From: Pratylenchus scribneri
Taxonomy: Eukaryota > Nematoda > Chromadorea > Rhabditida > Pratylenchidae
Direction of reading: 5' to 3'
Assembly (NCBI GenBank): GCA_030063045.1
Contig: JAQSEB010000069.1
Span: 744,001-808,000, forward strand
Length of the DNA: 64,000 nucleotides
The notes under the pieces are model-generated. The model was not told the origin of the DNA, did not search any database, and saw only the letters and a list, made by a program, of their open reading frames with translations. Position numbers and translations under genes: made by a program. Positions within the stretch are counted from its first letter, which is position 1, and each line of letters begins with the position of its first letter. Shown piece by piece: positions 4,774 through 64,000 of this stretch.

Positions 4774-27079
<22,306 letters not shown>

Positions 27080-39272: not shown

Positions 39273-40601
39273 CTAGAAAATAAGGTGGGTAGACGCGGCT
39301 TTGGAAAACTCCAGCTCTCTTCAAAATGGTCCAATCGACAAGCGGTTTGGTGCAAACCATATCTTGACCTTGTGTAGATTACGACAAAACTCTGACTTTT
39401 CCAAAATTTTCATTCCGCGCGGAGCTCCGCGCGGAAAACGGTTTTTTTGAGACCCATAGGGGGGACCCTTCTCTTTTCAAAAAATTTTTTTCGAGATAAA
39501 CACTGTGGAATGGGTAGTCGAGGTCGGGGATCCCGAATATGAAAATTTTTTTGAGATCCGCAAAGCGGTGCGCGAGTTACCGCGGTGCAAACCGCGGAGC
39601 GGATTTTTCAAAATTTTCACAAAAATAGTGTTATATGGGGTAAACGAGGTCGGGGATTACGAATATTATATCCGTTTTGAACGAAACCTAAAGGTGCGCG
39701 AGATTAAGCCGGATAAAGGGGGATTAAGAGGGATTAAGGTTCAAAATGATGGGATTAAGGTGGGAAATGGGCCGGAGGCCACCCCATTGAGCCCCGAAGG
39801 GGCGAAGATGGAAACAAACCCCCCTGAGCCCCGAAGGGGCGAGGATGGAGATAACCCCCCTGAGCCCCGAAGGGGCGAAGATGGAGATAAGATGGAAACA
39901 AACCCCCTGAGCCCCGAAGGGGCGAAAATGGAGATAACCCCCCTGAGCCTCGAAGGGGCGAAGATAGAGATAACCCCCTCTGAGCGCCGAAGGGGCGAAG
40001 ATGAAGATAACCCCCCTGAGCCCCGAAGGGGCGAAGATGGAGATAACCCCCCTGAGCCCCGAAGGGGCGAAGATGGATCAAACCCCCCTGAGCCCCGAAG
40101 GGGCGAAGATGGATCAAACCCCCCTGAGCCCCGAAGGGGCGAAAATGGAGATAACCCCCCTGAGCCTCGAAGGGGCGAAGATAGAGATAACCCCCTCTGA
40201 GCGCCGAAGGGGCGAAGATGAAGATAACCCCCCTGAGCCCCGAAGGGGCGAAGATGGAGATAACCCCCCTGAGCCCCGAAGGGGCGAAGATGGATCAAAC
40301 CCCCCTGAGCCCCGAAGGGGCGAAGATGGATCAAACCCCCCTGAGCCCCGAAGGGGCGAAAATGGAGATAACCCCCCTGAGCCTCGAAGGGGCGAAGATA
40401 GAGATAACCCCCTCTGAGCCCCGAAGGGGCGAAGATGGAGATGAACCTTGCGAAAATATATCAATTCCCTCCGAGTCACTCAAATAGCCTAAAGAAGGCT
40501 AGACTCAGTGAAATCCCGCAGGGATTCCAAAAACAAAGTGTCCTAAGCATATTTCCACATATCTCAAGGCAAGAGAGCCCCGCAGGGGCTAGTTATTATT
40601 A
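39273..40601 (+). repeat. Array unit 1 (1,329 bp)
   Basis: Head CTAGAAAATAAGGTGGGTAG. Palindrome at 39415-39434. About 18 minisatellite copies (39788-40441), including an internal duplication with a 217-bp shift. Its second half is the same allele as the second half of unit 8. Confidence 0.9.
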
Positions 40602-40643
40602 CTAGAAAATAAGGTGGGTAGACGCGGCTTTGGATTATTATTA
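40602..40643 (+). repeat. 42-bp truncated unit head
   Basis: CTAGAAAATAAGGTGGGTAG plus 12 bases, then ATTATTATTA and a new head. Only the first 33 or so bases of a unit are kept between two TTATTATTA boundaries. Confidence 0.85.
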
Positions 40644-41940
40644 CTAGAATATAACAAGGGTCCAATATCAAAAAGATTCAACCACCGGCTCGGGGTTTGC
40701 TCAGTAGGTCGGGAATTTTGCAAAAAAGGTGCACAGACCCGGTCGTCCCTATGAGAAAAATCCGTTTTTTCAAAAATTTTCACTCCGCGCGGAGCTCCGC
40801 GCGGAAAACGGTTTTTTTTACACCCATAGGGGGGACCCTTCTGTTTCCAAAAATTTTTTTTCCAAATTTTGCCACCAAAAGTTTGTGGAATGGGTAATCG
40901 AGGTCGGCGAAGCCGAATATCGAACTTTTTTCGAGATTGGCCAAGCGGTGCGCGAGTTACCGTGGCCAAACCGCGGAGCGGTTTTTTCCAAAATTTTCTC
41001 AAAAATAGTCGTATATGGGGTAATCGGGGTCGGGGATTCCGAATATGATAACGGTTTTGAACGAAACCTAAAGGTGCGCGGGATATAGCCGGATTAAGAG
41101 GGATTAAGGCGGATTAAGGATCAAAATGATGAGATTAAGGCGGAAAATGGATCGGAAGTGAAGGGGAAGCGTGCCGAAGGCACGTGGGCCGGGCCGGAGG
41201 CCCTGTAGCTGGGCTGGATATAGCCGGATAAAGGGGGATTAAGGCGGATTAAGAGGGATTAAGGGTCAAAATGATGAGATTAAGCGGAGAAATGTGCCGA
41301 AGGCCACCCCTTGAGCCCCGAAGGGGCGAAGATGGAAATAGCAGGCTTGGGAGTGCGTGGGATTAAGCCGGATAAAGGGGGATTAAGAGAGATTAAGCCG
41401 GATTAAGGGTCAAAATGAAGGGATTAAGTGGTGAAATGGGCCGTAGGCCCAAGGCAAACGAGCCGAAGGCTCGTGGGCCCGGCCGAAGGCCGGAATAAGC
41501 CTAGGATTAACCCGGATAAAGGGGGATTAAGTTGGATTAAGGGGGATTAAGGTTCAAAATGATGGGATTAAGGCGGGAAATGGATCGGAAGTGAAGGGGA
41601 AGCGTGCCGAAGGCACGTGGGCCGGGCCGGAGGCCCGGTAGCTAGACTGGATATAGCCGGATAAAGGGGATTAAGTGGGATTAAGCCGGATTAAGGGACA
41701 AAATGATGGAATTATGGTGGGAAAGGGGCCGAAGGCCACCCCCTGAGCCCCGAAGGGGCGAAGATGGAAATAGCGTGAGATTAAGCCGGATAAAGAGGGA
41801 TTAAGGTGGATTAAGCCGGATTAAGCTATAAAATGACTCAAAAATCATCTAGAGACAGTGAAATCCCGCAGGGATTCTAAAAATGAATAAGCCCAAATGA
41901 TCTCAAGGCAAGAGAGCCCCGCAGGGGCTAGTTATTATTA
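40644..41940 (+). repeat. Array unit 2 (1,297 bp)
   Basis: Head CTAGAATATAACAAGGGTCC. Single minisatellite copies are interspersed with GGATTAAG blocks. It contains C(GNA)G hairpins with all four loops. Its last ~480 bp recur in units 17 and 18. Confidence 0.9.
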
Positions 41941-43128
41941 TAAGAATATAACAAGGGTGGTCCAACAAACAGAAACTATTATCTCCCTTCAAAATGGTCC
42001 GTAGGCTGCAAATTTGGTACCGATCGAGTCCGCTTCGGCCGTAGATCATGAGAAAAATATGAACTTTGTCTAAACTTCATTCCGCGTGGAGCTCCGCGCG
42101 GAAAACGGTTTTTTTGGCACCCATAGGGGGGACCAAGCACTTTTCAAAAATTTTTTGTCTTATTTTTTCTTGAAATCGATACAGGAATGGGTAATCGAGG
42201 TCGGCGAAGCCGAATATCGAAAAAAATTTCGGGGTTGACCGAGCGGTGCGCGAGTTACCGTGGCCAAACCGCGGAGCGGAAAATAATTTTTTCTTCAATT
42301 TAGACTAAAAAATAGTAGTATATGGGGTAATCGAGGTCGGCGAAGCCGAATATCGAACTTTTTTCGAGATCCGCGAAGCGGTGCGCGAGTTACCGCGGCC
42401 AAACCGCGGAGCGGTTTTTTCCAAAATTTTCACAAAAATAGTCGTATATAGGGTAATCGGGGTCGGGGATCGCGAATATCATATCCATTTTGTACGAAAC
42501 CTAAAGGTGCGCGAGATTAAGCCGGATAAAGGGGGATTAAGAGGGATTAAGGGTCAAAATGATGGGATTAAGTGGGAAATGGGTCGGAAGTGAAGGGGAA
42601 GCGTGCCGAAGGCACGTGGGCCGGGCCGGAGGCCCGGTAGATGATCAGTATATAGCCGGATAAAGGGGGATTAGGAGGGATAAAGCCGGATTAAGGGTCA
42701 AAATGATGAGATTAAGGTGGGAAAGGGGCCGAAGGCCACCCCTTGAGCCCCGAAGGGGCGAAGATGGAAATAGCAGGTTTTGGAGTGTGTGGGATTAAGT
42801 CGGATAAAGGGGATTAAGCCGGATTAAAAGGGATTAAGCCGGATTAAGGGTCAAAATGATGGGATTATGACAGGGAAAGGGGCCGAAGGCCATCCCTTGA
42901 GCCCCGAAGGGGCGAAGATGGAAATAGCAGGCTTGGGAGTGCGTGGGATTAAGCCGGATAAAGGGGATTAAGCCGGATAAAGAGGGATTAAGCGGGATTA
43001 AGCTATAAAATGACCCCAAAATCACCTAGACTCAGTGAAATCCCGCAGGGATTCCAAAAACGAAGTGTCCCAAGCACAGATCCATATATCTCAAGGCAAG
43101 AGAGCCCCGCAGGGGCTAGTTATTATTA
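41941..43128 (+). repeat. Array unit 3 (1,188 bp)
   Basis: Head TAAGAATATAACAAGGGTGG. No apparent difference from unit 11 along its length. Palindrome left arm changed (CCGCGTGGAG). Confidence 0.9.
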
Positions 43129-44667
43129 CTAGAAAATAAGGTGGGTAGACGCGGCTTTGGAAAACTCCAGCTCTCTTCAAAATGGTCCAATCGACAAGCG
43201 GTTTGGTGCAAACCATATCTTGACCTTGTGTAGATTACGACAAAACTCTGACTTTTCCAAAATTTTCATTCCGCGCGGAGCTCCGCGCGGAAAACGGTTT
43301 TTTTGAGACCCATAGGGGGGACCCTTCTCTTTTCAAAAAATTTTTTTCGAGATAAGTCCAGAGGAATGGGTAGTCGAGGTTGACGAAGCCGAATATGACA
43401 ATTTTTTCGAAATCCGCGAAGCGGTGCGCGAGTTACCGCGGTTTAAACCGCGGAGCGGAAAAATATTTTTTTCAAATTTTGACTTAAAAATAGTCGTTTA
43501 TGGGGTAATCGAGGTCGGGGATCACGAATATCATATCCGTTTTGAACGAAACCTAAAGGTGCGCGAGATTAAGCCGGATATAGGGGGATTAAGGCGGATT
43601 AAGTATCAAAATGGTGGGATTAAGGTGGGAAATGGATCGGAAGTGAAGGGGAAGCGTGCCGAAGGCACGTGGGCTGGGCCGGAGGCCCGGTAGCTGGGCT
43701 GGATATAGCCGGATAAAGGGGGATTAAGGGGGATTAAGAGGGATTAAGGGTCAAAATGATGGGATTAAGGTGGGGAAAGGGGCCGAAGGCCACCCCTGAG
43801 CCCCGAAGAGGCGAAGATGGAGATAACCCCCTGAGCCCCGAAGGGGCGAAGATGGAAACAAACCCCCCTGAGCCCCGAAGGGGCGAAGGTGGAGATAACC
43901 CCCCCTGAGCCCCGAAGGGGCGAAGATGGAGATAACCCCCTGAGCCCCGAAGGGGCGAAGATGGAAACAAACCCCCCTGAGCCCCGAAGGGGCGAAGGTG
44001 GAGATAACCCCCCTGAGCCCCGAAGGGGCGAAAGTGGAGATAACCCCCCTGAGCCCCGAAGGGGCGAAGGTGGAGATAACCCCCCTGAGCCCCGAAGGGG
44101 CGAAGGTGGAGATAACCCCCCTGAGCCCCGAAGGGGCGAAGATGGAGATAACCCCCTGAGCCCCGAAGGGGCGAAGATGGAAACAAACCCCCCTGAGCCC
44201 CGAAGGGGCGAAGGTGGAGATAACCCCCCTGCCCCGAAGGGGCGAATATGGATCAAACCCCCCTGAGCCCCGAAGGGGCGAAGATGGATCAAACCCCCCT
44301 GAGCCCCGAAGGGGCGAAGATGGAGATAACCCCTCTGAGCCCCGAAGGGGCGAAGATGGATCAAACCCCCCTGAGCCCCGAAGGGGCGAAGATGGAGATA
44401 ACCCCCCTGAGCCCCGAAGGGGCGAAAATGGAGATAACCCCTCTGAGCCCCGAAGGGGCGAAGATGGATCAAACCCCCCTGAGCCCCGAAGGGGCGAAAA
44501 TGGAGATAACCCCTTCGAAAAGAGATAAAATTCCCTCCGAGTCACTCAAATAGTCTAAAGAAGGCTAGACTCAGTGAAATCCCGCAGGGATTCCAAAAAC
44601 GAAGTTTCCCAAGCACAGATCCATATATCTCAAGGCAAAAGAGCCCCGCAGGGGCTAGTTATTATTA
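43129..44667 (+). repeat. Array unit 4 (1,539 bp)
   Basis: Head as in unit 1. About 20 minisatellite copies (43797-44512). It contains the canonical G-quadruplex motif at 43718-43750. Confidence 0.9.
43718..43750 (+). other. Canonical G-quadruplex motif
   Basis: Four runs of at least three G (5, 5, 3 and 3) separated by ATTAA, ATTAAGA and ATTAA, that is loops of 5, 7 and 5. It arises from consecutive GGATTAAG repeats in the G-rich block of unit 4. Other units have three such runs or longer loops. Confidence 0.6.
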
Positions 44668-45979
44668 CTAGAAAATAAGGTGGGTAGACGCGGCTTCTCT
44701 TTTCAATAACTCTTTTCAAAATTGTCCTATCGACAAGCGGTTTGGTGCAAACCATATCTTGACCTTGTGTAGATTTGGCGAAAACTATAGAGAAGTTTCA
44801 AAATCCACTCCGCGCGGAGCTCCGCGCGGAAAACGGTTTTTTTGAGACCCATAGGGGGGACCCTTCTCTTTTCAAAAAATTTTTTTCGAGATAAACACTG
44901 GGGAATGGGTAGTCGAGGTCGGCGAAGCCGAATATGAAACTTTTTTCGAAATCCGCGAAGCGGTGCGCGAGTTACCGCGGTGTAAACCGCGGAGCGGATT
45001 TTTTAAAATTTTCACAAAAATAATCATATATGGGGTAATCGAGGTCGGGGATTACGAATATCATATCCGTTTTGAACGAAACCTAAAGGTGCGCGAGATT
45101 AAGCCGGATAAAGGGGGATTAAGAGGGATTAAGGGTCAAAATGATGGGATTAAGGCGGGAAATGAGTCGGAAGTGAAGGGGAAGCGTGCCGAAGGCACGT
45201 GGGCTGGGCCGGAGGCCCGGAAAGTTCGCGGGATATAGCCGGATATAGGGGGATTAAGCAGGATTAAGAGGGATTAAGGGTAAAAATGATGGGATTAATG
45301 TGGGAAAAGGGCCGAAGGCCTCCCCCTGAGCCCCGAAGGGGCGAAGATGGAAATAGCAGGCTTGGGAGTGCGTGGTATTAAGCCGGATAAAGGGGATAAA
45401 GGCGGATTAAGGGGGATTAAGGGTAAAAATGATGGGATTAAGGCGGGAAATGAGTCGGAAGTGAAGGGGAAGCGTGCCGAAGGCACGTGGGCTGGGCCGG
45501 AGGCCCGGAAAGTTCGCGGGATATAGCCGGATATAGGGGGATTAAGCAGGATTAAGAGGGATTAAGGGTAAAAATGATGGGATTAATGTGGGAAAAGGGC
45601 CGAAGGCCTCCCCCTGAGCCCCGAAGGGGCGAAGATGGAAATAGCAGGCTTGGGAGTGCGTGGTATTAAGCCGGATAAAGGGGATAAAGGCGGATTAAGG
45701 GGGATTAAGGGTAAAAATGATGGGATTAAGGTGGGGAAAGGGGCCGAAGGCCACCCCCTGAGCCCCGAAGGGGCGAAGATGGAAATAGCAGGCTTGGCAG
45801 TGCGTGGGATTAAGCCAGATATAGAGGGATAAAGGGGGATTAAGCCGGATTAAGCTCTGATTTCCACCAAAATCACCTAGACTCAGTGAAATCCCGCAGG
45901 GATTCCAAAAACGAATTGTCCCAAGCACAGATCCATATATCTCAAGGGAAAAGAGCCCCGCAGGGGCTAGTTATTATTA
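44668..45979 (+). repeat. Array unit 5 (1,312 bp)
   Basis: Head type GTGGGTAGACGCGG. The segment ending in the GGATTAAG block occurs twice in tandem (about 45130-45390 and 45430-45690). Its first half equals unit 6 and its tail equals unit 19. Confidence 0.9.
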
Positions 45980-47361
45980 CTAGAAAATAAGGTGGGTAGA
46001 CGCGGGAATTCTTTCAATTATCTCTCTTCAAAATGGTCGTATCGACAAGCGGTTTGGTGCAAACCATATCTTGACCTTGTGTAGATTTGGCGAAAACTAT
46101 AGAGAAGTTTCAAAATCCACTCCGCGCGGAGCTCCGCGCGGAAAACGGTTTTTTTGAGACCCATAGGGGGGACCCTTCTCTTTTCAAAAAATTTTTTTCG
46201 AGATAAACACTGGGGAATGGGTAGTCGAGGTCGGCGAAGCCGAATATGAAACTTTTTTCGAAATCCGCGAAGCGGTGCGCGAGTTACCGCGGTGTAAACC
46301 GCGGAGCGGATTTTTTAAAATTTTCACAAAAATAATCATATATGGGGTAATCGAGGTCGGGGATTACGAATATCATATCCGTTTTGAACGAAACCTAAAG
46401 GTGCGCGAGATTAAGCCGGATAAAGGGGGATTAAGAGGGATTAAGGGTCAAAATGATGGGATTAAGGCGGGAAATGAGTCGGAAGTGAAGGGGAAGCGTG
46501 CCGAAGGCACGTGGGCTGGGCCGGAGGCCCGGAAAGTTCGCGGGATATAGCCGGATATAGGGGGATTAAGCAGGATTAAGAGGGATTAAGGGTAAAAATG
46601 ATGGGATTAATGTGGGAAAAGGGCCGAAGGCCTCCCCCTGAGCCCCGAAGGGGCGAAGATGGAAACAAACCCCACTGAGTCCCGAAGGGGCGAAGATGGA
46701 GATAACCCCCCTGAGCCCCGAAGGGGCGAAGATTGAGATAACCCCCCTGAGCCCCGAAGAGGCGAAGATGGATCAAGCCCCCCTGAGCCCCGAAGGGGCG
46801 AAGATGGATCAAGCCCCCTGAGCCCCGAAGGGGCGAAGATGGAGATAACCCCCCTGAGCCCCGAAGGGGCGAAGATGGAGATAACCCCCCTGAGCCCCGA
46901 AGGGGCGAAGATGGATCAAGCCCCCTGAGCCCCGAAGGGGCGAAGATGGAGATAACCCCCCTGAGCCCCGAAGGGGCGAAGATGGAGATAACCCCCCTGA
47001 GCCCCGAAGGGGCGAAGATTGAGATAACCCCCCTGAGCTCCGAAGGGGCGAAGATGGATCAAGCCCCCCTGAGCCCCGAAGGGGCGAAGATGGAGATAAC
47101 CCCCCTGAGCCCCGAAGGGGCGAAGGTTGAAACAAATCCCTTAAAAAATAGATCACTTCCGGAGATAACCCCCCTGAGCCCCGAAGGGGCGAAGATGGAG
47201 ATAACCCCTGCGAAAATAGATCAATTCTCTCCGTTTTGCTCAAATAGTCTAAAGAAGGCTAGACTCAGTGAAATCCCGCAGGGATTCCAAAAACGAAGTT
47301 TCCCAAGCAAAGATCCATATATCTCAAGGCAAGAGAGCCCCGCAGGGGCTAGTTATTATTA
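45980..47361 (+). repeat. Array unit 6 (1,382 bp)
   Basis: Head type GTGGGTAGACGCGG. Minisatellite tract at about 46638-47213, interrupted once by AAAAAATAGATCACTTCCGG, a piece otherwise found only at the tract end. Confidence 0.9.
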
Positions 47362-48758
47362 CTAGAAAATAAGGTGGGTAGATACGGCTTCTCTAACCTA
47401 GAACTCTCTTCAAAATGGTCCAATCGACAAGCTGTTTGTTGCAAACCATATCTTGACCTTGTGTAGATTTGTAGAAAAATCTGACTTTTCCAAAATTTCC
47501 ACTCCGCGCGGAGCTCCGCGCGGAAAACGGTTTTTTTGACACCCAAAGGGGGGACCCTTCTCTTTTCAAAAAATTTTTTTCGAGATAAACACTGGGGAAT
47601 GGGTAGTCGAGGTCGGGGATCCCGAATATGAAAATTTTTTCGAGATCCGCGAAGCGGTGCGCGAGTTACCGCGGTGTAAACCGCGGAGCGGAAAAATAAT
47701 TTTTTCCAAATTTTGACTTAAAAATAGTCGTTTATGGGGTAATCGAGGTCGGGGATTACGAATATCATATCCGTTTTGAACGAAACCTAAAGGTGCGCGA
47801 GATTAAGCCGGATAAAGGGGGATTAAGAGGGATTAAGGGTCAAAATGATGGAATAAAGGCAAGAAATGAGTCGGAAGTAAAGGGGAAGCGTGCCGAAGGC
47901 ACGTGGGCTGGGCCGGAGGCCCGGTAGGTGCGCGGGATATAGCCGGATATAGGGGGATTAAGAGGGATTAAGGCGGATTAAAGGTCAAAATGATGGGATT
48001 AAGGCGGGGAAAGGGGCCGAAGGCCACCCCCTGAGCCCCGAAGGGGCGAAGATGGAAACAAACACCCCTGAGCCCCGAAGGGGCGAAAATGGAGATAACC
48101 CCCTGAGCCCCGAAGGGGCGAAAGTGGAGATAACCCCCCTGAGCCCCGAAGGGGCGAAGATGGAGATAACCCCCCTGAGCCCCGAAGGGGCGAAGATGGA
48201 GATAACCCGCCTGAGCCCCGAAGGGGCGAAGATGGAGATAACCCCCCTGAGCCCCGAAGGGGCGAAGATGGAGATAACCCGCCTGAGCCCCGAAGGGGCG
48301 AAGATGGAGATAACCCCCCTGAGCCCCGAAGGGGCGAAAGTGGAGATAACCCCCCTGAGCCCCGAAGGGGCGAAGATGGAGATAACCCGCCTGAGCCCCG
48401 AAGAGGCGAAGATGGAGATAACCCCCCTGAGCCCCGAAGGGGCGAAGATGGAGATAACCCGCCTGAGCCCCGAAGAGGCGAAGATGGAGATAACCCCCCT
48501 GAGCCCCGAAGGGGCGAAGATGGAGATAACCCCCCTGAGCCCCGAAGGGGCGAAAGTGGAGATAACCCCCCTGAGCCCCGAAGGGGCGAAGATGGAAACA
48601 AATCCCTTAGAAAATAGATCACTTCCCTACGAGAAATTCAAATAGTCTAATTAGGCTAGACTCAGTGAAATCCCGCAGGGATTCCAAAAACGAAGTATTC
48701 CAATCATAGTTCCACATATCTCAAGGGAAAAGAGCCCCGCAGGGGCTAGTTATTATTA
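47362..48758 (+). repeat. Array unit 7 (1,397 bp)
   Basis: Head type GTGGGTAGATACGG. About 16 minisatellite copies (48030-48603), mostly of the GGAGATAA spacer class. The tract is a longer version of those in units 9 and 12. Confidence 0.9.
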
Positions 48759-50108
48759 TAAGAAAATAAGGTCGGGGTTCCAACAAATTCTTTCAAGTTT
48801 AAGACTTCACAGGTGTCCGTATACTGCAAATTTGGTCTCGATCTGTGGGCGACCAGGTTGCGGTTTGTAGAAAACTTCAAACTTTTTTCCAACTTTACTC
48901 CGCGCGGAGCTCCGCGCGGAAAACGGTTTTTTTGGTACCCATAGGGGGGACCAAGCACTTTTCAAAAATTTTTTGTCTTATTTTTTCTTGAAATCGATTC
49001 AGGAATGGGAAATCGAGGTCGGCGAAGCCGAATATCGAAAAAAATTTCGGGGTTGACCGAGCGGTGCGCGAGTTACCGTGGCCAAACCGCGGAGCGGAAA
49101 ATAATTTTTTCTTCAATTTAGACTAAAAAATAGTAGTATATGGGGTAATCGAGGTCGGCGAAGCCGAATATCGAACTTTTTTCGAGATCCGCGAAGCGGT
49201 GCGCGAGTTACCGCGGTTTAAACCGCGGAGCTGGAAATAATTTTTTCTTAAATTTCGACATAAAAATAGTGCGGAGCGGATTTTTCAAAATTTTCACAAA
49301 AATAGTGTTATATGGGGTAAACGAGGTCGGGGATTACGAATATTATATCCGTTTTGAACGAAACCTAAAGGTGCGCAAGATTAAGCCGGATAAAGGGGGA
49401 TTAAGAGGGATTAAGGTTCAAAATGATGGGATTAAGGTGGGAAATGGGCCGGAGGCCACCCCATTGAGCCCCGAAGGGGCGAAGATGGAAACAAACCCCC
49501 CTGAGCCCCGAAGGGGCGAGGATGGAGATAACCCCCCTGAGCCCCGAAGGGGCGAAGATGGAGATAAGATGGAAACAAACCCCCTGAGCCCCGAAGGGGC
49601 GAAAATGGAGATAACCCCCCTGAGCCTCGAAGGGGCGAAGATAGAGATAACCCCCTCTGAGCCCCGAAGGGGCGAAGATGAAGATAACCCCCCTGAGCCC
49701 CGAAGGGGCGAAGATGGAGATAACCCCCCTGAGCCCCGAAGGGGCGAAGATGGATCAAACCCCCCTGAGCCCCGAAGGGGCGAAGATGGATCAAACCCCC
49801 CTGAGCCCCGAAGGGGCGAAGATGGAGATAAGATGGAAACAAACCCCCTGAGCCCCGAAGGGGCGAAAATGGAGATAACCCCCCTGAGCCTCGAAGGGGC
49901 GAAGATAGAGATAACCCCCTCTGAGCCCCGAAGGGGCGAAGATGGAGATGAACCTTGCGAAAATATATCAATTCCCTCCGAGTCACTCAAATAGCCTAAA
50001 GAAGGCTAGACTCAGTGAAATCCCGCAGGGATTCCAAAAACGAATTGTCCCAAGCACAGATCCATATATCTCAAGGGAAAAGAGCCCCGCAGGGGCTAGT
50101 TATTATTA
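48759..50108 (+). repeat. Array unit 8 (1,350 bp), visible recombinant
   Basis: Head TAAGAAAATAAGGTCGGGG, shared with unit 19; the middle is like unit 3. At about 49270 the module sequence jumps (AATAGT directly to GCGGAGCGG) into the unit 1 allele, which continues through about 13 minisatellite copies. Confidence 0.9.
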
Positions 50109-52542: not shown

Positions 52543-53730
52543 TAAGAATATAACAAGGGTGGTCCAACAAACAGAAACTATTATCTCCCTTCAAAATGGT
52601 CCGTAGGCTGCAAATTTGGTACCGATCGAGTCCGCTTCGGCCGTAGATCATGAGAAAAATATGAACTTTGTCTAAACTTCATTCCGCGTGGAGCTCCGCG
52701 CGGAAAACGGTTTTTTTGGCACCCATAGGGGGGACCAAGCACTTTTCAAAAATTTTTTGTCTTATTTTTTCTTGAAATCGATACAGGAATGGGTAATCGA
52801 GGTCGGCGAAGCCGAATATCGAAAAAAATTTCGGGGTTGACCGAGCGGTGCGCGAGTTACCGTGGCCAAACCGCGGAGCGGAAAATAATTTTTTCTTCAA
52901 TTTAGACTAAAAAATAGTAGTATATGGGGTAATCGAGGTCGGCGAAGCCGAATATCGAACTTTTTTCGAGATCCGCGAAGCGGTGCGCGAGTTACCGCGG
53001 CCAAACCGCGGAGCGGTTTTTTCCAAAATTTTCACAAAAATAGTCGTATATAGGGTAATCGGGGTCGGGGATCGCGAATATCATATCCATTTTGTACGAA
53101 ACCTAAAGGTGCGCGAGATTAAGCCGGATAAAGGGGGATTAAGAGGGATTAAGGGTCAAAATGATGGGATTAAGTGGGAAATGGGTCGGAAGTGAAGGGG
53201 AAGCGTGCCGAAGGCACGTGGGCCGGGCCGGAGGCCCGGTAGATGATCAGTATATAGCCGGATAAAGGGGGATTAGGAGGGATAAAGCCGGATTAAGGGT
53301 CAAAATGATGAGATTAAGGTGGGAAAGGGGCCGAAGGCCACCCCTTGAGCCCCGAAGGGGCGAAGATGGAAATAGCAGGTTTTGGAGTGTGTGGGATTAA
53401 GTCGGATAAAGGGGATTAAGCCGGATTAAAAGGGATTAAGCCGGATTAAGGGTCAAAATGATGGGATTATGACAGGGAAAGGGGCCGAAGGCCATCCCTT
53501 GAGCCCCGAAGGGGCGAAGATGGAAATAGCAGGCTTGGGAGTGCGTGGGATTAAGCCGGATAAAGGGGATTAAGCCGGATAAAGAGGGATTAAGCGGGAT
53601 TAAGCTATAAAATGACCCCAAAATCACCTAGACTCAGTGAAATCCCGCAGGGATTCCAAAAACGAAGTGTCCCAAGCACAGATCCATATATCTCAAGGCA
53701 AGAGAGCCCCGCAGGGGCTAGTTATTATTA
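52543..53730 (+). repeat. Array unit 11 (1,188 bp)
   Basis: Copy of unit 3, same length, 10,602 bp away. Confidence 0.9.
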
Positions 53731-54983
53731 CTAGAAAATAAGGTGGGTAGATACGGCTTTTCCAAACTCTAGCTCTCTTCAAAATGGTCATATCGACAAG
53801 CGGTTTGGTGCAAACCATATCTTGACCTTGTGTAGATTTGTGGAAAAATCTGACTTTTTCAAAATTTTCATTCCGCACGGAGCTCCGCGCGGAAAACGGT
53901 TTTTTTGGGACCCATAGGGGGGACCCTTCTCTTTTCAAAAAATTTTTTTCGAGATAAGCATTGGGGAATGGGTAGTCGAGGTCGGCGAAGCCGAAAATGA
54001 AACTTTTTTCGAGATCCGCGAAGCGGTGCGCGAGTTACCGCGGTGTGAACCGCGGAGCGGAAAAATAATTTTTCCTCAATTTTGACTTAAAAATAGTCGT
54101 TTATGGGGTAATCGAGGTCGGGGATTACGAATATCATATCCGTTTTGAACGAAACCTAAAGGTGCGCGAGATTAAGCCGGATAAAGGGGGATTAAGAGGG
54201 ATTAAGGGTCAAAATGATGGAATAAAGGCAGGAAATGAGTCGGAAGTAAAGGGGAAGCGTGCCGAAGGCACGTGGGCTGGGCCGGAGGCCCGGTAGGTGC
54301 GCGGGATATAGCCGGATATAGGGGGATTAAGAGGGATTAAGGCGGATTAAAGGTCAAAATGATGGGATTAAGGCGGGGAAAGGGGCCGAAGGCCACCCCC
54401 TGAGCCCCGAAGGGGCGAAGATGGAAACAAACACCCCTGAGCCCCGAAGGGGCGAAAATGGAGATAACCCCCTGAGCCCCGAAGGGGCGAAAGTGGAGAT
54501 AACCCCCCTGAGCCCCGAAGGGGCGAAGATGGAGATAACCCCCCTGAGCCCCGAAGGGGCGAAGATGGAGATAACCCGCCTGAGCCCCGAAGGGGCGAAG
54601 ATGGAGATAACCCCCCTGAGCCCCGAAGGGGCGAAAGTGGAGATAACCCCCCTGAGCCCCGAAGGGGCGAAGATGGAGATAACCCGCCTGAGCCCCGAAG
54701 AGGCGAAGATGGAGATAACCCCCCTGAGCCCCGAAGGGGCGAAGATGGAGATAACCCCCCTGAGCCCCGAAGGGGCGAAAGTGGAGATAACCCCCCTGAG
54801 CCCCGAAGGGGCGAAGATGGAAACAAATCCCTTAGAAAATAGATCACTTCCCTACGAGAAATTCAAATAGTCTAATTAGGCTAGACTCAGTGAAATCCCG
54901 CAGGGATTCCAAAAACGAAGTATTCCAATCATAGTTCCACATATCTCAAGGGAAAAGAGCCCCGCAGGGGCTAGTTATTATTA
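53731..54983 (+). repeat. Array unit 12 (1,253 bp)
   Basis: Copy of unit 9, same length, 3,622 bp away. Confidence 0.9.
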
Positions 54984-56753
54984 CTAGAAAATAAGGTGGG
55001 TAGACGCGGCTTCTCTTTTCAATAACTCTTTTCAAAATTGTCCTATCGACAAGCGGTTTGGTGCAAACCATATCTTGACCTTGTGTAGATTTGGCGAAAA
55101 CTATAGAGAAGTTTCCAAACTCACTCCGCGCGGAGCTCCGCGCGGAAAACGGTTTTTTTGGGACCCATAGGGGGGACCAAGCACTTTTCAAAAAATTTTT
55201 TTCGAGATAAACACTGGGGAATGGGTAATCGAGGTCGGCGAAGCCGAATATGAAACTTTTTTTGAGATCCGCGGAGCGGTGCGCGAGTTACCGCGGTGCA
55301 AACCGCGGAGCGGATTTTTCAAAATTTTCACAAAAATAGTCATTTATGGGGTAATCAGGGTCGGGGAACACGAATATCAAGTTTATTTTGCGATCCGCGA
55401 AGCGGTGCGCGAGTTACCGCGGTGTAAACCGCGGAGCGGATTTTCCAAAATTTTAACAAAAATAGTCATTTATAGGGTAATCGAGGACGGCGAAGCCGAA
55501 TATCATATCCGTTTTGCACGAAACCCAAAGCTGCGCGGGATATAGCCGGATAAAGGGGGATTAAGAGGGATTAAGGGTCAAGATGATGGGATTAAGGTGG
55601 AAAATGGGCCGGAGGCCACCCCTCTGAGCCCCGAAGGGGCGAAGATGGAACAAACCCCCCTGAGCCCCGAAGGGGCGAAGATGGAAACAAACCCCCCTGA
55701 GCCCCGAAGGGGCGAAGATGGAAACAAACCCCCCCTGAGCCCCGAAGGGGCGAAGATGAAGATAACCCCCCTGAGCCCCGAAGGGGCGAAGATGGAGATA
55801 ACCCCCCTGTGCCCCGAAGGGGCGAAGATGGAAACAAACCCACCTGAGCCCCGAAGGGGCGAAGATGGAAATAATCCCCCTGAGCCCCGAAGGGGCGAAG
55901 ATGGAAACAAACCCCCCTGAGCCCCGAAGGGGCGAAGATGGAGATAACCCCCCTGAGCCCCGAAGGGGCGAAGATGGAGATAACCCCCCTGAGCCCCGAA
56001 GGGGCGAAGATGGTGATAATCCCCTTGAGCCCCGAAGGGGCGAAGATGGAAACAAACCCCTGAGCCCCAAGGGGCGAAGATGGAGATAACCCCCCTGAGC
56101 CCCGAAGGGGCGAAGGTGGAGATAACCCCCCTCTGAGCCCCGAAGGGGCGAAGATGGATCAAACCCCCCTGAGCCCCGAAGGGGCGAAGATGGAGATAAC
56201 CCCCCTGAGCCCCGAAGGGGCGAAGATGGAGATAACCCCCCTGAGCCCCGAAGGGGCGAAGATGGTGATAATCCCCTTGAGCCCCGAAGGGGCGAAGATG
56301 GAAACAAACCCCTGAGCCCCAAGGGGCGAAGATGGAGATAACCCCCCTGAGCCCCGAAGGGGCGAAGGTGGAGATAACCCCCCTCTGAGCCCCGAAGGGG
56401 CGAAGATGGATCAAACCCCCCTGAGCCCCGAAGGGGCGAAGATGGAGATAACCCCCCTGAGCCCCGAAGGGGCGAAGATGGAGATAACCCCCCTGAGCCC
56501 CGAAGGGGCGAAGATGGAGATAACCCCCCTGAGCCCCGAAGGGGCGAAAATGGAGATAACCCCCTTGAGCCCCGAAGGGGCGAAAATGGAGATAACCCCT
56601 TTGAAAAGAGATAAAATTCCCTCCGAGTCACTCAAATAGTCTAAAGAAGGCTAGATTCAGTGAAATCCCGCAGGGATTCCAAAAACGAAGTTTCCCAAGC
56701 ACAGATCCATATATCTCAAGGCAAAAGAGCCCCGCAGGGGCTAGTTATTATTA
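54984..56753 (+). repeat. Array unit 13 (1,770 bp), longest
   Basis: Head type GTGGGTAGACGCGG. About 27 minisatellite copies (55625-56600) with an internal duplication of about 250 bp; both duplicates carry the same one-base deletion in the loop (GCCCCAAGGGGC). Its first half equals unit 15. Confidence 0.9.
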
Positions 56754-57653
56754 TAAGAATATAACAAGGGAGGTCCAACAAATTATTTCAAGTTTAAGAC
56801 TTGACAGATGTTCGTAGGCTGCAAATTTGGTACCGTTCGATGCCGCTTCGGCCGTAGATTATGAGAAAACTTCAACCAAATTTCCAACTTTACTCCGCGC
56901 GGAGCTCCGCGCGGAAAACGGTTTTTTTGGTACCCATAGGGGGGACCAAGCACTTTTCAAAAATTTTTTGTCTTATTTTTTCTTGAAATCGATTCAGGAA
57001 TGGGTAATCGAGGTCGGCGAAGCCGAATATCGAAAAAAATTTCGGGGTTGGCCAAGCGGTGCGCGAGTTACCGCGGTTCAAACCGCGGAGCGGAAAATAA
57101 TTTTTTCTTAAATTTCGACATAAAAATAGTGTAATATGGGGTAATCGAGATCGGAGAATCCGAATATCACATTCGTTTTGAACGAAACCTAAAGGTGCGC
57201 GGGATTAAGCCGGATAAAGAGGGATTAAGCCGGATTAAGGGTCAAAATGATGGGATAAAGGTGGGAAAGGGGCCGGAAGTGAAGGGGAAGCGTGCCGAAG
57301 GCACGTGGGCCGGGCCGGAGGCCCGGTGTCTGGGCTGGGTATAGCCGGATAAAGGGGGATTAAGTGGGATTAAGCCGGATTAAGGGTCAAAATGATGGGA
57401 TTATGGTGGGAAAGGGGCCGAAGGCCACCCCTTGAGCCCCGAAGGGGCGAAAATGGAAATAGCAGGCTTGGGAGTGTGTAGGATTAAGCCGGATAAAGGG
57501 GGATTAAGCCGGATTAAGGGGGATTAAGCCGGATTAAGCTATAAAATGACCCCAAAATCACCTAGAGACAGTGAAATCCCGCAGGGATTCTAAAAATGAA
57601 TAAGCCCAAGTGATCTCAAGGCAAGAGAGCCCCGCAGGGGCTAGTTATTATTA
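56754..57653 (+). repeat. Array unit 14 (900 bp), shortest full unit
   Basis: Head TAAGAATATAACAAGGGAGG. One minisatellite copy. It carries the A-T version of the module stem (TCGGA-GAA-TCCGA, 57151-57163). Confidence 0.9.
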
Positions 57654-59029
57654 CTAGAAAATAAGGTGGGTAGACGCGGCTTCTCTTTTCAATAACTCCG
57701 CGGTAAATGGTCCTATCGACAAGCGGTTTGGTGCAAACCATATCTTGACCTTGTGTAGATTTGTAGAAAAATCCGTTTTTTTCAAAATTTTCACTCCGCG
57801 CGGAGCTCCGCGCGGAAAACGGTTTTTTTGGGACCCATAGGGGGGACCAAGCACTTTTCAAAAAATTTTTTTCGAGATAAACACTGGGGAATGGGTAATC
57901 GAGGTCGGCGAAGCCGAATATGAAACTTTTTTTGAGATCCGCGGAGCGGTGCGCGAGTTACCGCGGTGCAAACCGCGGAGCGGATTTTTCAAAATTTTCA
58001 CAAAAATAGTCATTTATGGGGTAATCAGGGTCGGGGAACACGAATATCAAGTTTATTTTGCGATCCGCGAAGCGGTGCGCGAGTTATCGCGGTGTAAACC
58101 GCGGAGCGGATTTTCCAAAATTTTAACAAAAATAGTCATTTATAGGGTAATCGAGGACGGCGAAGCCGAATATCATATCCGTTTTGCACGAAACCCAAAG
58201 CTGCGCGGGATATAGCCGGATAAAGGGGGATTAAGAGGGATTAAGGGTCAAGATGATGGGATTAAGGTGGAAAATGGGCCGGAGGCCACCCCTCTGAGCC
58301 CCGAAGGGGCGAAGATGGAACAAACCCCCCTGAGCCCCGAAGGGGCGAAGATGGAAACAAACCCCCCTGAGCCCCGAAGGGGCGAAGATGGAAACAAACC
58401 CCCCCTGAGCCCCGAAGGGGCGAAGATGAAGATAACCCCCCTGAGCCCCGAAGGGGCGAAGATGGAGATAACCCCCCTGAGCCCCGAAGGGGCGAAGATG
58501 GAAACAAACCCCCCTGAGCCCCGAAGGGGCGAAGATGGAAATAATCCCCCTGAGCCCCGAAGGGGCGAAGATGGAAACAAACCCCCCTGAGCCCCGAAGG
58601 GGCGAAGATGGAGATAACCCCCCTGAGCCCCGAAGGGGCGAAGATGGAGATAACCCCCCTGAGCCCCGAAGGGGCGAAGATGGAAACAAACCCCCCTGAG
58701 CCCCGAAGGGGCGAAGATGGAAATAATCCCCCTGAGCCCCGAAGGGGCGAAGATGGAAACAAACCCCCCTGAGCCCCGAAGGGGCGAAGATGGAGATAAC
58801 CCCCCTGAGCCCCGAAGGGGCGAAGATGGAGATAACCCCCCTGAGCCCCGAAGGGGCGAAAATGGAGATAACCCCTTCGAAAAGAGATAAAATTCCCTCC
58901 GAGTCACTCAAATAGTCTAAAGAAGGCTAGACTCAGTGAAATCCCGCAGGGATTCCAAAAACGAAGTGTCCCAAGCATAGATCCACTTATCTCAAGGGAA
59001 AAGAGCCCCGCAGGGGCTAGTTATTATTA
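57654..59029 (+). repeat. Array unit 15 (1,376 bp)
   Basis: Head type GTGGGTAGACGCGG. Two 126-bp modules. About 16 minisatellite copies (58295-58875) in nearly the same variant order as the first part of unit 13. Confidence 0.9.
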
Positions 59030-60016
59030 TAAGAATATAACAAGGATGGTCCAACCTTTGATTTCAATTAACTTTCTTCAAAATATCCCGTAGGCTGCAA
59101 ATTTAGTCTCGATCGAACGCACTTCGGCCGTAGATTTCGGTAAAAATATTAAGAAGTTTCCAAATTCATTCCGCGCGGAGCTCCGCGCGGAAAACGGTTT
59201 TTTTGGTACCCATAGGGGGGACCAAGCACTTTTCAAAAAATTTTTTTCGAGATTAACACTGGGGAATGGGTAATCGAGGTCGGGGATCCCGAATATGAAA
59301 ATTTTTTCGAGATCCGCGAAGCGGTGCGCGAGTTACCGCGGTGTAAACCGCGGAGCGGATTTTTCAAAATTTTCACAAAAATAGTCGTATATGGGGTAAT
59401 CGGAGTCGGGGATCACGAATATTGCAATTTTTTCGAGATCCGCGAAGCGGTGCGCGAGTTACCGCGGTGTAAACCGCGGAGCGGATTTTTCAAAATTTTC
59501 ACAAAAATAGTCATATATGGGGTAATCGAGGTCGGCGAAGCCGAATATCATATCCGTTTTGCACGAAACCCAAAGCTGCGCGGGATATAGCCGGATAAAG
59601 GGGGATTAAGAGGGATTAAGGTTCAAAATGATGGGATTAAGGTGGGGAAAGGGGCCGAAGGCCACCCCCTGAGCCCCGAAGGGGCGAAGATGGAAATAGC
59701 AGGCTTGGCAGTGCGTGGGATTAAGCCGGATATAGAGGGATAAAGGGGGATTAAGGGTAAAAATGATGGGATTAAGGTGGGGAAAGGGGCCGAAGGCCAC
59801 CCCCTGAGCCCCGAAGGGGCGAAGATGGAAATAGCAGGCTTGGCAGTGCGTGGGATTAAGCCGGATATAGAGGGATAAAGGGGGATTAAGCCGGATTAAG
59901 CTATAAAATGACCCAAAAATCAATCTAGACACAGTGAAATCCCGCAGGGATTCTAAAAATGAACAAGCCCAAGTGATCTCAAGGCAAGAGAGCCCCGCAG
60001 GGGCTAGTTATTATTA
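59030..60016 (+). repeat. Array unit 16 (987 bp)
   Basis: Head TAAGAATATAACAAGGATGG. Two 126-bp modules, two single minisatellite copies. The part visible in unit 20 (351 bp) matches its start. Confidence 0.9.
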
Positions 60017-61321
60017 CTAGAATATAAGGTCTCAACAAAATCAAATTCTTTCAATTATCTCTCTTCAAAATGGGCCGAAGGCCCTGAAATTTGAACTGAA
60101 GGAACCGAAGCCGGTCGCGGTTTGGAGAAAAATCCGAAATTTGAAAAATTTTCATTCCGCGCGGAGTTATACCGCGGTTTGCGGTTTTTTGAGACCCATA
60201 GGGGGGACCCTTCTCTTTTCAAAAAATTTTTTTTCGAATTTTGTCTTCAAAAGTTTGTGGAATGGGTAATTGAGGTCGGCGAAGCCGAATATCGAACTTT
60301 TTTCGAGATTGGCCAAGCGGTGCGCGAGTTACCGTGGCCAAACCGCGGAACGGATTTTTTCAAAATTTTCACAAAAATAGTCGATTATGGGGTAATCGAG
60401 GTCGGGGATTCCGAATATGATAACGGTTTTGAACGAAACCTAAAGGTGAGCGGGATTAAGCCGGATATATGGGGATTAAGAGGGATTAAGAGGGATTAAG
60501 GGTCAAAATGTTGAGATTAAATGGTGAAATGAGCCGAAGGCCCAAGGCAAACGAGCCGAAGGCTCGCGGGCCCGGCCGAAGGCCGAAAGATGCCGGGGAT
60601 TAAGCCGGATAAAGGGGGATTAAGGCGGATTAAGAGGGATTAAGAGTCAAAATGAAGGGATTAAGTGGTGAAATGGGCCGTAGGCCCAAGGCAAACGAGC
60701 CGAAGGCTCGCGGGCCCGGCCGAAGGCCGGAAGATGCCGGGGATTAAGCCGGATAAAGGGGGATTAAGGCGGATTAAGAGGGATTAAGAGTCAAAATGAA
60801 GGGATTAAGTGGTGAAATGGGCCGTAGGCCCAAGGCAAACGAGCCGAAGGCTCGTGGGCCCGGCCGAAGGCCGGAATAAGCCTAGGATTAACCCGGATAA
60901 AGGGGGATTAAGTTGGATTAAGGGGGATTAAGGTTCAAAATGATGGGATTAAGGCGGGAAATGGATCGGAAGTGAAGGGGAAGCGTGCCGAAGGCACGTG
61001 GGCCGGGCCGGAGGCCCGGTAGCTAGACTGGATATAGCCGGATAAAGGGGATTAAGTGGGATTAAGCCGGATTAAGGGACAAAATGATGGAATTATGGTG
61101 GGAAAGGGGCCGAAGGCCACCCCCTGAGCCCCGAAGGGGCGAAGATGGAAATAGCGTGAGATTAAGCCGGATAAAGAGGGATTAAGGTGGATTAAGCCGG
61201 ATTAAGCTATAAAATGACTCAAAAATCATCTAGAGACAGTGAAATCCCGCAGGGATTCTAAAAATGAATAAGCCCAAATGATCTCAAGGCAAGAGAGCCC
61301 CGCAGGGGCTAGTTATTATTA
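60017..61321 (+). repeat. Array unit 17 (1,305 bp)
   Basis: Head CTAGAATATAAGGTCTCAAC. The palindrome is broken: after CCGCGCGGAG comes TTATACCGCGG. Direct tandem copy of unit 18. Confidence 0.9.
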
Positions 61322-62626
61322 CTAGAATATAAGGTCTCAACAAAATCAAATTCTTTCAATTATCTCTCTTCAAAATGGGCCGAAGGCCCTGAAATTTGAA
61401 CTGAAGGAACCGAAGCCGGTCGCGGTTTGGAGAAAAATCCGAAATTTGAAAAATTTTCATTCCGCGCGGAGTTATACCGCGGTTTGCGGTTTTTTGAGAC
61501 CCATAGGGGGGACCCTTCTCTTTTCAAAAAATTTTTTTTCGAATTTTGTCTTCAAAAGTTTGTGGAATGGGTAATTGAGGTCGGCGAAGCCGAATATCGA
61601 ACTTTTTTCGAGATTGGCCAAGCGGTGCGCGAGTTACCGTGGCCAAACCGCGGAACGGATTTTTTCAAAATTTTCACAAAAATAGTCGATTATGGGGTAA
61701 TCGAGGTCGGGGATTCCGAATATGATAACGGTTTTGAACGAAACCTAAAGGTGAGCGGGATTAAGCCGGATATATGGGGATTAAGAGGGATTAAGAGGGA
61801 TTAAGGGTCAAAATGTTGAGATTAAATGGTGAAATGAGCCGAAGGCCCAAGGCAAACGAGCCGAAGGCTCGCGGGCCCGGCCGAAGGCCGAAAGATGCCG
61901 GGGATTAAGCCGGATAAAGGGGGATTAAGGCGGATTAAGAGGGATTAAGAGTCAAAATGAAGGGATTAAGTGGTGAAATGGGCCGTAGGCCCAAGGCAAA
62001 CGAGCCGAAGGCTCGCGGGCCCGGCCGAAGGCCGGAAGATGCCGGGGATTAAGCCGGATAAAGGGGGATTAAGGCGGATTAAGAGGGATTAAGAGTCAAA
62101 ATGAAGGGATTAAGTGGTGAAATGGGCCGTAGGCCCAAGGCAAACGAGCCGAAGGCTCGTGGGCCCGGCCGAAGGCCGGAATAAGCCTAGGATTAACCCG
62201 GATAAAGGGGGATTAAGTTGGATTAAGGGGGATTAAGGTTCAAAATGATGGGATTAAGGCGGGAAATGGATCGGAAGTGAAGGGGAAGCGTGCCGAAGGC
62301 ACGTGGGCCGGGCCGGAGGCCCGGTAGCTAGACTGGATATAGCCGGATAAAGGGGATTAAGTGGGATTAAGCCGGATTAAGGGACAAAATGATGGAATTA
62401 TGGTGGGAAAGGGGCCGAAGGCCACCCCCTGAGCCCCGAAGGGGCGAAGATGGAAATAGCGTGAGATTAAGCCGGATAAAGAGGGATTAAGGTGGATTAA
62501 GCCGGATTAAGCTATAAAATGACTCAAAAATCATCTAGAGACAGTGAAATCCCGCAGGGATTCTAAAAATGAATAAGCCCAAATGATCTCAAGGCAAGAG
62601 AGCCCCGCAGGGGCTAGTTATTATTA
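61322..62626 (+). repeat. Array unit 18 (1,305 bp)
   Basis: Adjacent copy of unit 17, same length; only the boundary changes (next unit starts TAAG, not CTAG). Confidence 0.9.
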
Positions 62627-63649
62627 TAAGAAAATAAGGTCGGGGTTCCAACAAATTCTTTCAAGTTTAAGACTTCACAGGTGTCCGTATACTGCAAATT
62701 TGGTCTCGATCTGTGGGCGACCAGGTTGCGGTTTGTAGAAAACTTCAAACTTTTTTCCAACTTTACTCCGCGCGGAGCTCCGCGCGGAAAACGGTTTTTT
62801 TGGTACCCATAGGGGGGACCAAGCACTTTTCAAAAAATTTTTTTCGAGATAAGTTCATAGGAATGGGTAATCGAGGTCGGGGATTCCGAATATCGAAATT
62901 TTTTCGAAATCCGCGAAGCGGTGCGCGAGTTACCGCGGTTCAAACCGCGGAGCGGATTTTTTAAAATTTTCACAAAAATAATCATATATGGGGTAATCGA
63001 GGTCGGGGATTACGAATATCATATCCGTTTTGAACGAAACCTAAAGGTGCGCGAGATTAAGCCGGATAAAGGGGGATTAAGAGGGATTAAGGGTCAAAAT
63101 GATGGGATTAAGGCGGGAAATGAGTCGGAAGTGAAGGGGAAGCGTGCCGAAGGCACGTGGGCTGGGCCGGAGGCCCGGAAAGTTCGCGGGATATAGCCGG
63201 ATATAGGGGGATTAAGCAGGATTAAGAGGGATTAAGGGTAAAAATGATGGGATTAATGTGGGAAAAGGGCCGAAGGCCTCCCCCTGAGCCCCGAAGGGGC
63301 GAAGATGGAAATAGCAGGCTTGGGAGTGCGTGGTATTAAGCCGGATAAAGGGGATAAAGGCGGATTAAGGGGGATTAAGGGTAAAAATGATGGGATTAAG
63401 GTGGGGAAAGGGGCCGAAGGCCACCCCCTGAGCCCCGAAGGGGCGAAGATGGAAATAGCAGGCTTGGCAGTGCGTGGGATTAAGCCAGATATAGAGGGAT
63501 AAAGGGGGATTAAGCCGGATTAAGCTCTGATTTCCACCAAAATCACCTAGACTCAGTGAAATCCCGCAGGGATTCCAAAAACGAATTGTCCCAAGCACAG
63601 ATCCATATATCTCAAGGGAAAAGAGCCCCGCAGGGGCTAGTTATTATTA
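62627..63649 (+). repeat. Array unit 19 (1,023 bp)
   Basis: The head equals unit 8, the tail equals unit 5: a mosaic of two alleles. Confidence 0.9.
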
Positions 63650-64000
63650 TAAGAATATAACAAGGATGGTCCAACCTTTGATTTCAATTAACTTTCTTCA
63701 AAATATCCCGTAGGCTGCAAATTTAGTCTCGATCGAACGCACTTCGGCCGTAGATTTCGGTAAAAATATTAAGAAGTTTCCAAATTCATTCCGCGCGGAG
63801 CTCCGCGCGGAAAACGGTTTTTTTGGTACCCATAGGGGGGACCAAGCACTTTTCAAAAAATTTTTTTCGAGATTAACACTGGGGAATGGGTAATCGAGGT
63901 CGGGGATCCCGAATATGAAAATTTTTTCGAGATCCGCGAAGCGGTGCGCGAGTTACCGCGGTGTAAACCGCGGAGCGGATTTTTCAAAATTTTCACAAAA
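63650..64000 (+). repeat. Array unit 20 (cut by window end)
   Basis: The first 351 bp match the start of unit 16. Confidence 0.9.

Follow-up and report, generated by a model that had tools for sequence, protein, structure and literature searches.

The DNA analyzed here, called the window below, is a stretch of 64,000 nucleotides from the nematode Pratylenchus scribneri (contig JAQSEB010000069.1, hereafter C69, positions 744001-808000, within an assembly of 227 Mb). From position 39273 to its right end at 64000 (24,728 bp) it is occupied by an array of tandem units, which lies in an intron of a gene encoding an FHA domain. The array is rich in short hairpins of the form C(GNA)G, in which a GNA triloop is closed by a C-G pair, the closing pair that is also found in GNA mini-hairpins. 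Judged by its sequence, the array consists of head-to-tail, non-autonomous copies of a rolling-circle transposon of the Helitron superfamily, and it was filed at the level of the superfamily only. The window contains 19 complete head-to-tail units of 0.9-1.8 kb each (Table 1). They start with TATTATTA followed by C or T and end with GCCCC-GCA-GGGGC-TAGT, and the next unit begins directly after. Between these ends, a 5' region of up to about 590 bp is followed by hairpin-bearing repeats of 144 bp and 36 bp, by a subterminal hairpin, ATCCC-GCA-GGGAT, and by the terminal hairpin. Among the units are three identical pairs (1188, 1253 and 1305 bp), indicating that the array has been renewed by recent amplification. 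An original prediction, made without database searches, had described this DNA as a satellite built almost entirely of C(GNA)G hairpins. The hairpins were found to cover 17.9% of it (4,436 of 24,736 bases), and a satellite in a category of its own was not borne out, the units being, as far as their sequences tell, tandem Helitron copies.

Protein-coding DNA was found inside the array to the right of the window, where the array continues to C69:827535. An autonomous Helitron of about 11.5 kb (C69:808.6-820.2k) lies in this same array and has ends that match those of the units. Its Rep domain was identified by a match to Helitron_like_N (PF14214; L010:6818-7297; E 8.8e-29; 101.5 bits against a cut-off of 28.9) that spans model positions 76-187 of 191, and its helicase matched PIF1 (E 3e-32) and Pif1_2B (E 5.7e-13). 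The piece after the helicase yielded sub-cut-off matches only (HAD_2, E 0.0071; OTU, E 0.032), and its reading as OTU was made by eye. A part of the open frames was scanned against Pfam, and no apurinic/apyrimidinic endonuclease domain was among the matches. The first 590 bp of the autonomous element, its 5' region, match every one of the window units (19 of 19; 77-89% over 201-596 bp), as do 29-35 bp around its subterminal 3' hairpin; the coding middle is replaced in the units by the 144-bp and 36-bp repeats.

The autonomous elements occur in tandem too, because on contig C47 the end hairpins repeat at a spacing of exactly 11,617 bp in four successive copies (C47:2497048-2531916), and Rep matches recur at the same spacing in three copies. 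The six Rep matches of this first family that are listed on C47 contain no stop within the PF14214 match. Rep matches lie within about 30 kb of units on at least ten contigs (C69, C186, C44, C9, C12, C34, C47, C82, C99 and C68), and on 10 of the 20 listed unit contigs (C189, C101, C142, C14, C145, C160, C86, C76, C75 and C33) no Rep of this lineage was found nearby. The list of ends added two unit-bearing contigs, C32 and C25. All of these placements are lower bounds, since the unit matches listed are part of 376 and the listed positions of terminal GCA hairpins are 100 of 254.

The features of the Helitron superfamily that are present include the Rep nuclease domain, the Pif1-family helicase, and a 3' hairpin near the terminus. 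The ends typical of Helitron1, 5'-TC and CTRR-3' with an AT target, are absent, the ends being TATTATTA and GGGGCTAGT instead. Subterminal inverted repeats were searched for as exact repeats of 7-14 bp between the first 90 and the last 190 bp in 4 of the 19 units; two units contained none and two contained one of 7 bp. In the same four units, no exact repeat above 7 bp was found that could represent the asymmetric terminal inverted repeats of the Helitron2 type. By eye, the unit ends share ACTAG/CTAGT. A T precedes the first unit at all three left array edges inspected (window position 39264, L012 and L017), and a T follows at three right edges (L011, L014 and L019), but the latter T was demanded by the scan. 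No target-site duplication was evident by eye at the array edges, and the divergence of the related introns precludes an exact alignment of the site. The junctions between units (e.g. window 40589-40605) read CTAGT-TATTATT-ACTAG and can form a small hairpin, the loop and 3' side of which read TATTATTAC. This sequence would fit the nonanucleotide at the origins of small circular DNA viruses, NANTATTAC.

The claim that the loop is constant while the stems differ was confirmed far beyond chance, and the pattern proved to be specific for one strand. All nine hairpins named in the original prediction are present where it placed them, with perfect stems and the loops it gave. In the array part of the window, hairpins with a three-nucleotide loop and a stem of 5 bp or longer numbered 319, compared with a mean of 31.6 and a maximum of 42 in ten dinucleotide shuffles. 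C(GNA)G accounts for 268 of the 319 (207 GAA, 38 GCA, 18 GGA and 5 GTA). A second count was restricted to stems of 4 bp or more in which three or four of the four loop-proximal bases are G or C. By this measure, 335 of 345 array hairpins were C(GNA)G on the plus strand and 0 of 345 on the minus strand; in 100 shuffles of the array, C(GNA)G hairpins of this kind averaged 1.74 and never exceeded 5. Control DNA showed no such enrichment: C(GNA)G made up 0 of 12 (plus) and 1 of 12 (minus) in the 39-kb window flank, 0 of 1 in Helitron coding DNA, and 0 of 3 in a GC-richer 2-kb stretch of the flank, which is a small GC-matched control. Within this limit, neither of the outcomes that the original prediction had named as refuting it was observed.

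The counts were extended to 12 stretches comprising the window array and loci L010-L019, some flank included (L001-L008 were excluded because of overlap). There, 626 of 967 three-nucleotide-loop hairpins with stems of at least 5 bp were C(GNA)G, 340 had other loops and were mainly AT-rich, and one was C(TNC)G. All 626 hairpins share a set of just 9 different 5-bp stems. In the array part of the window, palindromes with other loop lengths exceed the shuffles too, for example those with 5-nt loops (120 compared with 35.9). Folding of single-stranded DNA in 41 array tiles gave mean z values of -1.53 (plus) and -1.63 (minus), compared with 0.06 for flank DNA and 0.36/0.42 for Helitron coding DNA. 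The folding energy cannot test the GNA rule, because the DNA parameters assigned the same energy (-4.2) to all tested loops.

Next to the number of hairpins, the variation of their loops and stems was quantified. In 41 sources (the window, L010-L019 and L030-L059), perfect stems with any three-nucleotide loop at CTAGTT were collected; this yielded 65 ends, all of them in the window and L010-L019, and the loop was GCA in 65 of 65, with the stem GCCCC in 61 cases and the compensated stem GCGCC in four. The terminal hairpin was then scanned for genome-wide with the loop left free and with a perfect stem and TAGTT required. The stem GCCCC occurs in 259 copies, 254 of them with GCA; among the first 100 copies listed, 99 have GCA and one has GAA, and the four further copies without GCA follow by subtraction. 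The stem GCGCC has GCA in 27 of 27 copies. Hairpin B of the 144-bp module was aligned in 65 distinct unit rows (7 of 72 aligned rows, which are not 144-bp units, were dropped by name). It has three main stem classes, GCCCC, GTGCC and GAGCC, and its loop is GAA in all rows but one, which has GTA. Two of its base pairs covary, and 98.5% of pairs are Watson-Crick pairs, compared with 79.2% (maximum 84.9%) in 1000 shuffles, a difference that is not to be read as a probability because the rows are related. For the 36-bp repeat, every place with at most five mismatches to a 27-base pattern was taken from the 12 stretches, resulting in 337 copies of the core. None of them has a change in the loop, stem bases are changed in 0-2.1%, and positions outside the core in up to 14%. 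The core of the 36-bp repeat and the terminal hairpin have GAGCCCCGNAGGGGC in common.

The core GAGCCCCGAAGGGGCGAA occurs 1,627 times in the genome (754 forward and 873 reverse), and the reversed control pattern does not occur. Among the matches listed, some cores lie outside the large arrays. A dispersed element of about 250 bp was observed at three loci, L070-L072 (C5:2127800-2128400, C4:191050-191650 and C1:1376800-1377400). By eye, it has a tRNA-like head with a box A and a box B-like sequence; it further contains two cores, TGAGCCCCGAAGGGGCGAAG, about 60 bp apart, a hairpin GAACGCCC-GATA-GGGCGTTC, and a CTAGT end as in the Helitron units. ARAGORN found no tRNA gene in the three loci. The element may be similar to a short interspersed element (SINE), or it may be a Helitron with a captured piece of a tRNA.

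Hairpins with the same loop type were also found in two further Helitron families of the genome. The genome patterns used for them fixed the G and the A of the loop, and the frequency of other loops is thus not measurable with these patterns. The second family has the 3' end CAGTCCC-GAA-GGGACTG, and many of its Reps are part of open frames about 2,100 amino acids long. Eight of its 3' regions were examined, and the hairpin was present in seven and missing in that of C75. The hairpin has 74 genome copies, all with GAA. For 20 of 21 Reps, a copy is found on the coding strand at a distance of about 3.6 kb downstream; this set of Reps was grouped by eye on E-values and model coverage. The third family is characterized by GAGCCGC-GNA-GCGGCTC in 27 copies (9 GAA, 17 GCA and 1 GGA). 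Three of these are found 4.4-5.7 kb downstream of closely related Reps on C15, C54 and C167, again on the coding strand, which puts the hairpin near the 3' end of the element. Because the stems of the three families differ, what is common to them is the loop and the strand, not the stem.

Changing stems, a fixed loop, and the restriction to one strand are the trace expected of a terminator that is read by its loop, and we therefore read the terminal C(GNA)G hairpin as a putative stop signal. In the proposed mechanism, the element would insert between two T's, and the hairpin would be recognized on the displaced plus strand, chiefly via its loop. The array could grow by insertion at its own T|T junctions, by joining or replication of circles, and by unequal exchange; since the ends create a new T|T at each junction, we infer that a further insertion at such a place would extend the array and leave no scar. 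Because the 36-bp core shares a sequence with the terminal hairpin, the internal hairpins can be viewed as amplified relatives of the terminator, which may serve as decoys or alternative stops or may be passengers. Published results on Helraiser are in agreement with a role of the loop. Its 3' hairpin is described as a terminator; about 90% of activity was reported when the stem was swapped and the loop kept, and a loop change plus one base pair acted like a deletion of the hairpin (PMC4778049). The authors of another Helraiser study concluded that transposition involves the plus strand alone and proceeds via precise head-to-tail circles (PMC5876387). The original prediction had postulated a process that handles folded single strands of DNA or RNA; this idea stands in its general form, and with Helitron transposition it now has a concrete candidate. 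Nothing in the window points to hairpin promoters like those of phage N4, which are recognized by a virion RNA polymerase and which the prediction had mentioned as an analogy; no search aimed at them was made. Taken together, we estimate a probability of roughly three in four that the locus is a Helitron array with C(GNA)G as a loop-read 3' terminator. A wider version is considerably more tentative. It would make C(GNA)G a loop-read code of several Helitron families, in which the transposase sees the triloop as a stop and the stem is free, and in which the units are filled with stop copies that act as decoys titrating the transposase or as alternative stops setting the length.

Several observations weigh against a loop-read terminator at the end of an inserted Helitron. 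The hairpin copies are kin by descent, so that 335 hairpins do not represent 335 independent events, and their stems are few. In the 36-bp repeat, the stretch of low variation exceeds the hairpin (TGAG before and CGAA after it), and several positions outside the loop are invariant as well; judged from this conservation, an element longer than the hairpin may be under constraint, and the recognition site may be longer. The Rep match on C34 and the unit ends listed there are on opposite strands, and the same holds for most of the ends on C68. The subterminal hairpin of the second family has the loop CCC, which is not GNA, and the hairpin of the third family is not found on the contigs of the more distant related Reps (C112, C163, C16 and C41). 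As for the insertion, the exact site cannot be aligned in the diverged introns, and the end scans required TT after CTAG, so that the second T of the T|T site is given by construction. Lastly, the loop of Helraiser is ATT and not GNA, and its hairpin is described as not absolutely required (PMC4778049).

The best-surviving alternative is that the hairpins have no terminator role in the units, but are palindromes that were spread by the amplification of the array, with their stems kept by arm copying during template switching in replication. The identical unit pairs testify to strong recent amplification, and the 36-bp repeat contains uncompensated stem changes (12 imperfect variants in 28 of 337 copies), both of which count in favor of this alternative. 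Arm copying would leave the loop free, yet GNA persists across different stems and three Helitron families, and we regard the explanation as unlikely. Still less likely is selection at the RNA level, in which case folded hairpins in array transcripts would serve to protect, process or silence the element. The hairpins are on the sense strand of the intron, and the same core hairpin occurs in the dispersed element with the tRNA-like head recognized by eye; but the terminal hairpins are located at DNA ends, the known place of Helitron termination, and no Rfam match reached the gathering score within the window. In six small loci, Rfam gave three weak matches, all below gathering. A search for the nematode spliced leader SL1 yielded 41 matches, all of them short of the cut-off.

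Very improbable is a chromosome-structural satellite, telomeric or centromeric, of the root-knot nematode type. The array is a composite repeat with GC skew, and some arrays lie near contig ends (C14:724, the C69 array at 27 kb, and a second array on C186 at about 20 kb); the canonical TTAGGC in four copies is absent from the whole assembly, as has been reported for Meloidogyne, which in itself proves nothing. Against this, for the other arrays on contigs of known length (C186, first array, C82, C142, C44, C189, C12, C34, C47, C9, C99 and C32) the distance to either contig end is 100 kb or more, and units of about 1.2 kb with transposon ends differ from the repeat of 250-300 bp, mostly contig-terminal, that is described for Meloidogyne (PMC10844300). 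A telomeric or centromeric satellite was rejected on the basis of array position and unit structure. A CENP-B box-like motif (PMC3694981) was also considered as the conserved core and was not adopted. Equally improbable as a structural satellite is that the prevalence of one loop type arose by accident from a few repeated words and has no structural meaning, as the small number of stems might suggest, in view of the covarying stems, the compensated terminal stems GCCCC/GCGCC, and the two further families with the same loop.

The host gene, which is presumably kinesin-3-like, allows a comparison of the intron with and without the array. At five related loci that lack the array (two on C44 and one each on C131, C89 and C101), the flank matches are merely 222-409 bp apart and have exons on both sides. 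The intron is thus a few hundred bases long in the related loci and has about 44.7 kb here, with splice sites read by eye. Elsewhere in the window, an AT-rich 11/33-bp tandem repeat with 15.1 copies of the 33-bp unit is present at 23275-23800. It lies in a stretch in which exons resembling CAD were read by eye; of these, only the CPSase_L_D2 domain at 11439-11825 was confirmed. The coordinates of the units and of the other features are compiled in Table 1.

Table 1. Features of the array and of the host gene, given as positions in the window.
Feature	Position	Strand	Remark
Tandem array of non-autonomous Helitron units	39265..64000	+	runs on to about C69:827535 beyond the window
Unit 1	39265..40593	+	1329 bp
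Unit 2	40594..41932	+	1339 bp; the 5' end motif occurs again at 40636
Unit 3	41933..43120	+	1188 bp; identical to unit 11
Unit 4	43121..44659	+	1539 bp
Unit 5	44660..45971	+	1312 bp
Unit 6	45972..47353	+	1382 bp
Unit 7	47354..48750	+	1397 bp
Unit 8	48751..50100	+	1350 bp
Unit 9	50101..51353	+	1253 bp; identical to unit 12
Unit 10	51354..52534	+	1181 bp
Unit 11	52535..53722	+	1188 bp
Unit 12	53723..54975	+	1253 bp
Unit 13	54976..56745	+	1770 bp; longest minisatellite tract
Unit 14	56746..57645	+	900 bp
Unit 15	57646..59021	+	1376 bp
Unit 16	59022..60008	+	987 bp
Unit 17	60009..61313	+	1305 bp; identical to unit 18
Unit 18	61314..62618	+	1305 bp
Unit 19	62619..63641	+	1023 bp
Unit 20, start only, truncated by the window end	63642..64000	+	
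3'-terminal hairpin GCCCC-GCA-GGGGC, unit 1	40577..40589	+	shared by all 19 units; TAGT and the next unit follow
Subterminal hairpin AATCCC-GCA-GGGATT, unit 2	41862..41876	+	all 19 units have the core ATCCCGCAGGGAT
36-bp minisatellite of C(GAA)G hairpins, unit 1	39781..40447	+	
36-bp minisatellite, unit 4	43793..44513	+	
36-bp minisatellite, unit 13	55618..56599	+	27 copies
Repeat module of about 144 bp bearing hairpins, unit 2	41091..41738	+	
Intron of the FHA-domain gene, enlarged by the array	39065..64000	+	end read by eye at C69:827761
Host-gene exon, FHA domain PF00498	36588..36878	+	E 5.6e-4, score at cut-off

It is unsettled how Helitrons recognize their 3' end and why they often overrun it and capture host DNA. 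Here, hundreds of hairpins have a varying stem and a fixed loop in three families and lie on the Rep coding strand wherever a comparison within a family can be made, and this genomic pattern agrees with the published loop-versus-stem mutant test in Helraiser. The shared loop may be a mark that tells rolling-circle elements where copying stops. Hairpins of this kind, with varying stems and a fixed loop, reduce 3'-end recognition to a simple binding and cleavage assay. In addition, the locus is a clear case of a satellite built of tandem rolling-circle elements beside an autonomous partner and of the growth of an intron from a few hundred bases to its present size. If the reading is true, a transposon has been turned into a hairpin satellite by units that filled with copies of their stop signal.

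Tandem Helitron arrays and Helitron-borne satellites are already known. No loop-defined hairpin code was found in the literature searched, which was covered mostly by titles and abstract openings. The accessible text of a transposon survey of plant-parasitic nematodes (PMC11118728) refers to Helitrons in one passage and mentions neither hairpins nor satellites, and the words Helitron, hairpin and palindrome are absent from a paper on nematode satellitomes (PMC9673304). The mini-hairpins of the d(GCGAAGC) type have the same loop type, and GNA loops are reported to be unusually stable in DNA (Yoshizawa 1997, as cited in PMC6479982); what is described there is chemistry only, not a biological array. 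The composite telomeric repeats of Meloidogyne (PMC10844300, PMC10630426) are also G-rich, strand-oriented and complex, whereas the array studied here belongs to a type that is mostly interstitial and has transposon ends on units of about 1.2 kb.

Among the Helitrons, Helraiser as a representative of Helitron1 (PMC4778049, PMC5876387) shares the Rep and the Pif1-type helicase, the 3' hairpin, which is a putative terminator here, and the head-to-tail junctions; in the proposed mechanism, the greater weight of the loop over the stem and the transposition of the plus strand would be common to both as well. Its hairpin is described as lying 11 nt from the end and having an ATT loop, whereas the hairpin here lies 4 nt from the inferred end and has a GNA loop. 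Helitron2 (PMC3627910) is similar in its 3'-terminal hairpin, the 5' T, the absence of TC/CTRR ends, and compensatory stem changes; the asymmetric terminal inverted repeats of 8-15 bp that form a 5'-terminal hairpin in the published description were not found as exact repeats in the four units examined here. In their working, the units are most like the HINE elements with satellite-like central repeats, i.e. non-autonomous Helentrons such as Cg_HINE of oysters (PMC7492417) and HINE of mites and DINE-1 of Drosophila (PMC4067079). According to these reports, HINE elements also have left and right Helitron-type modules around tandem central repeats and a 3' palindrome; their insertion sites are T-rich, and an insertion between T's is the candidate here. 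They have subterminal inverted repeats of 11-15 bp, compared with no exact match longer than 7 bp in the four units examined here. The array in P. scribneri differs further from HINE in that whole elements are arranged in tandem, the central repeats consist of hairpins whose loop is constant, and an autonomous partner is part of the same array.

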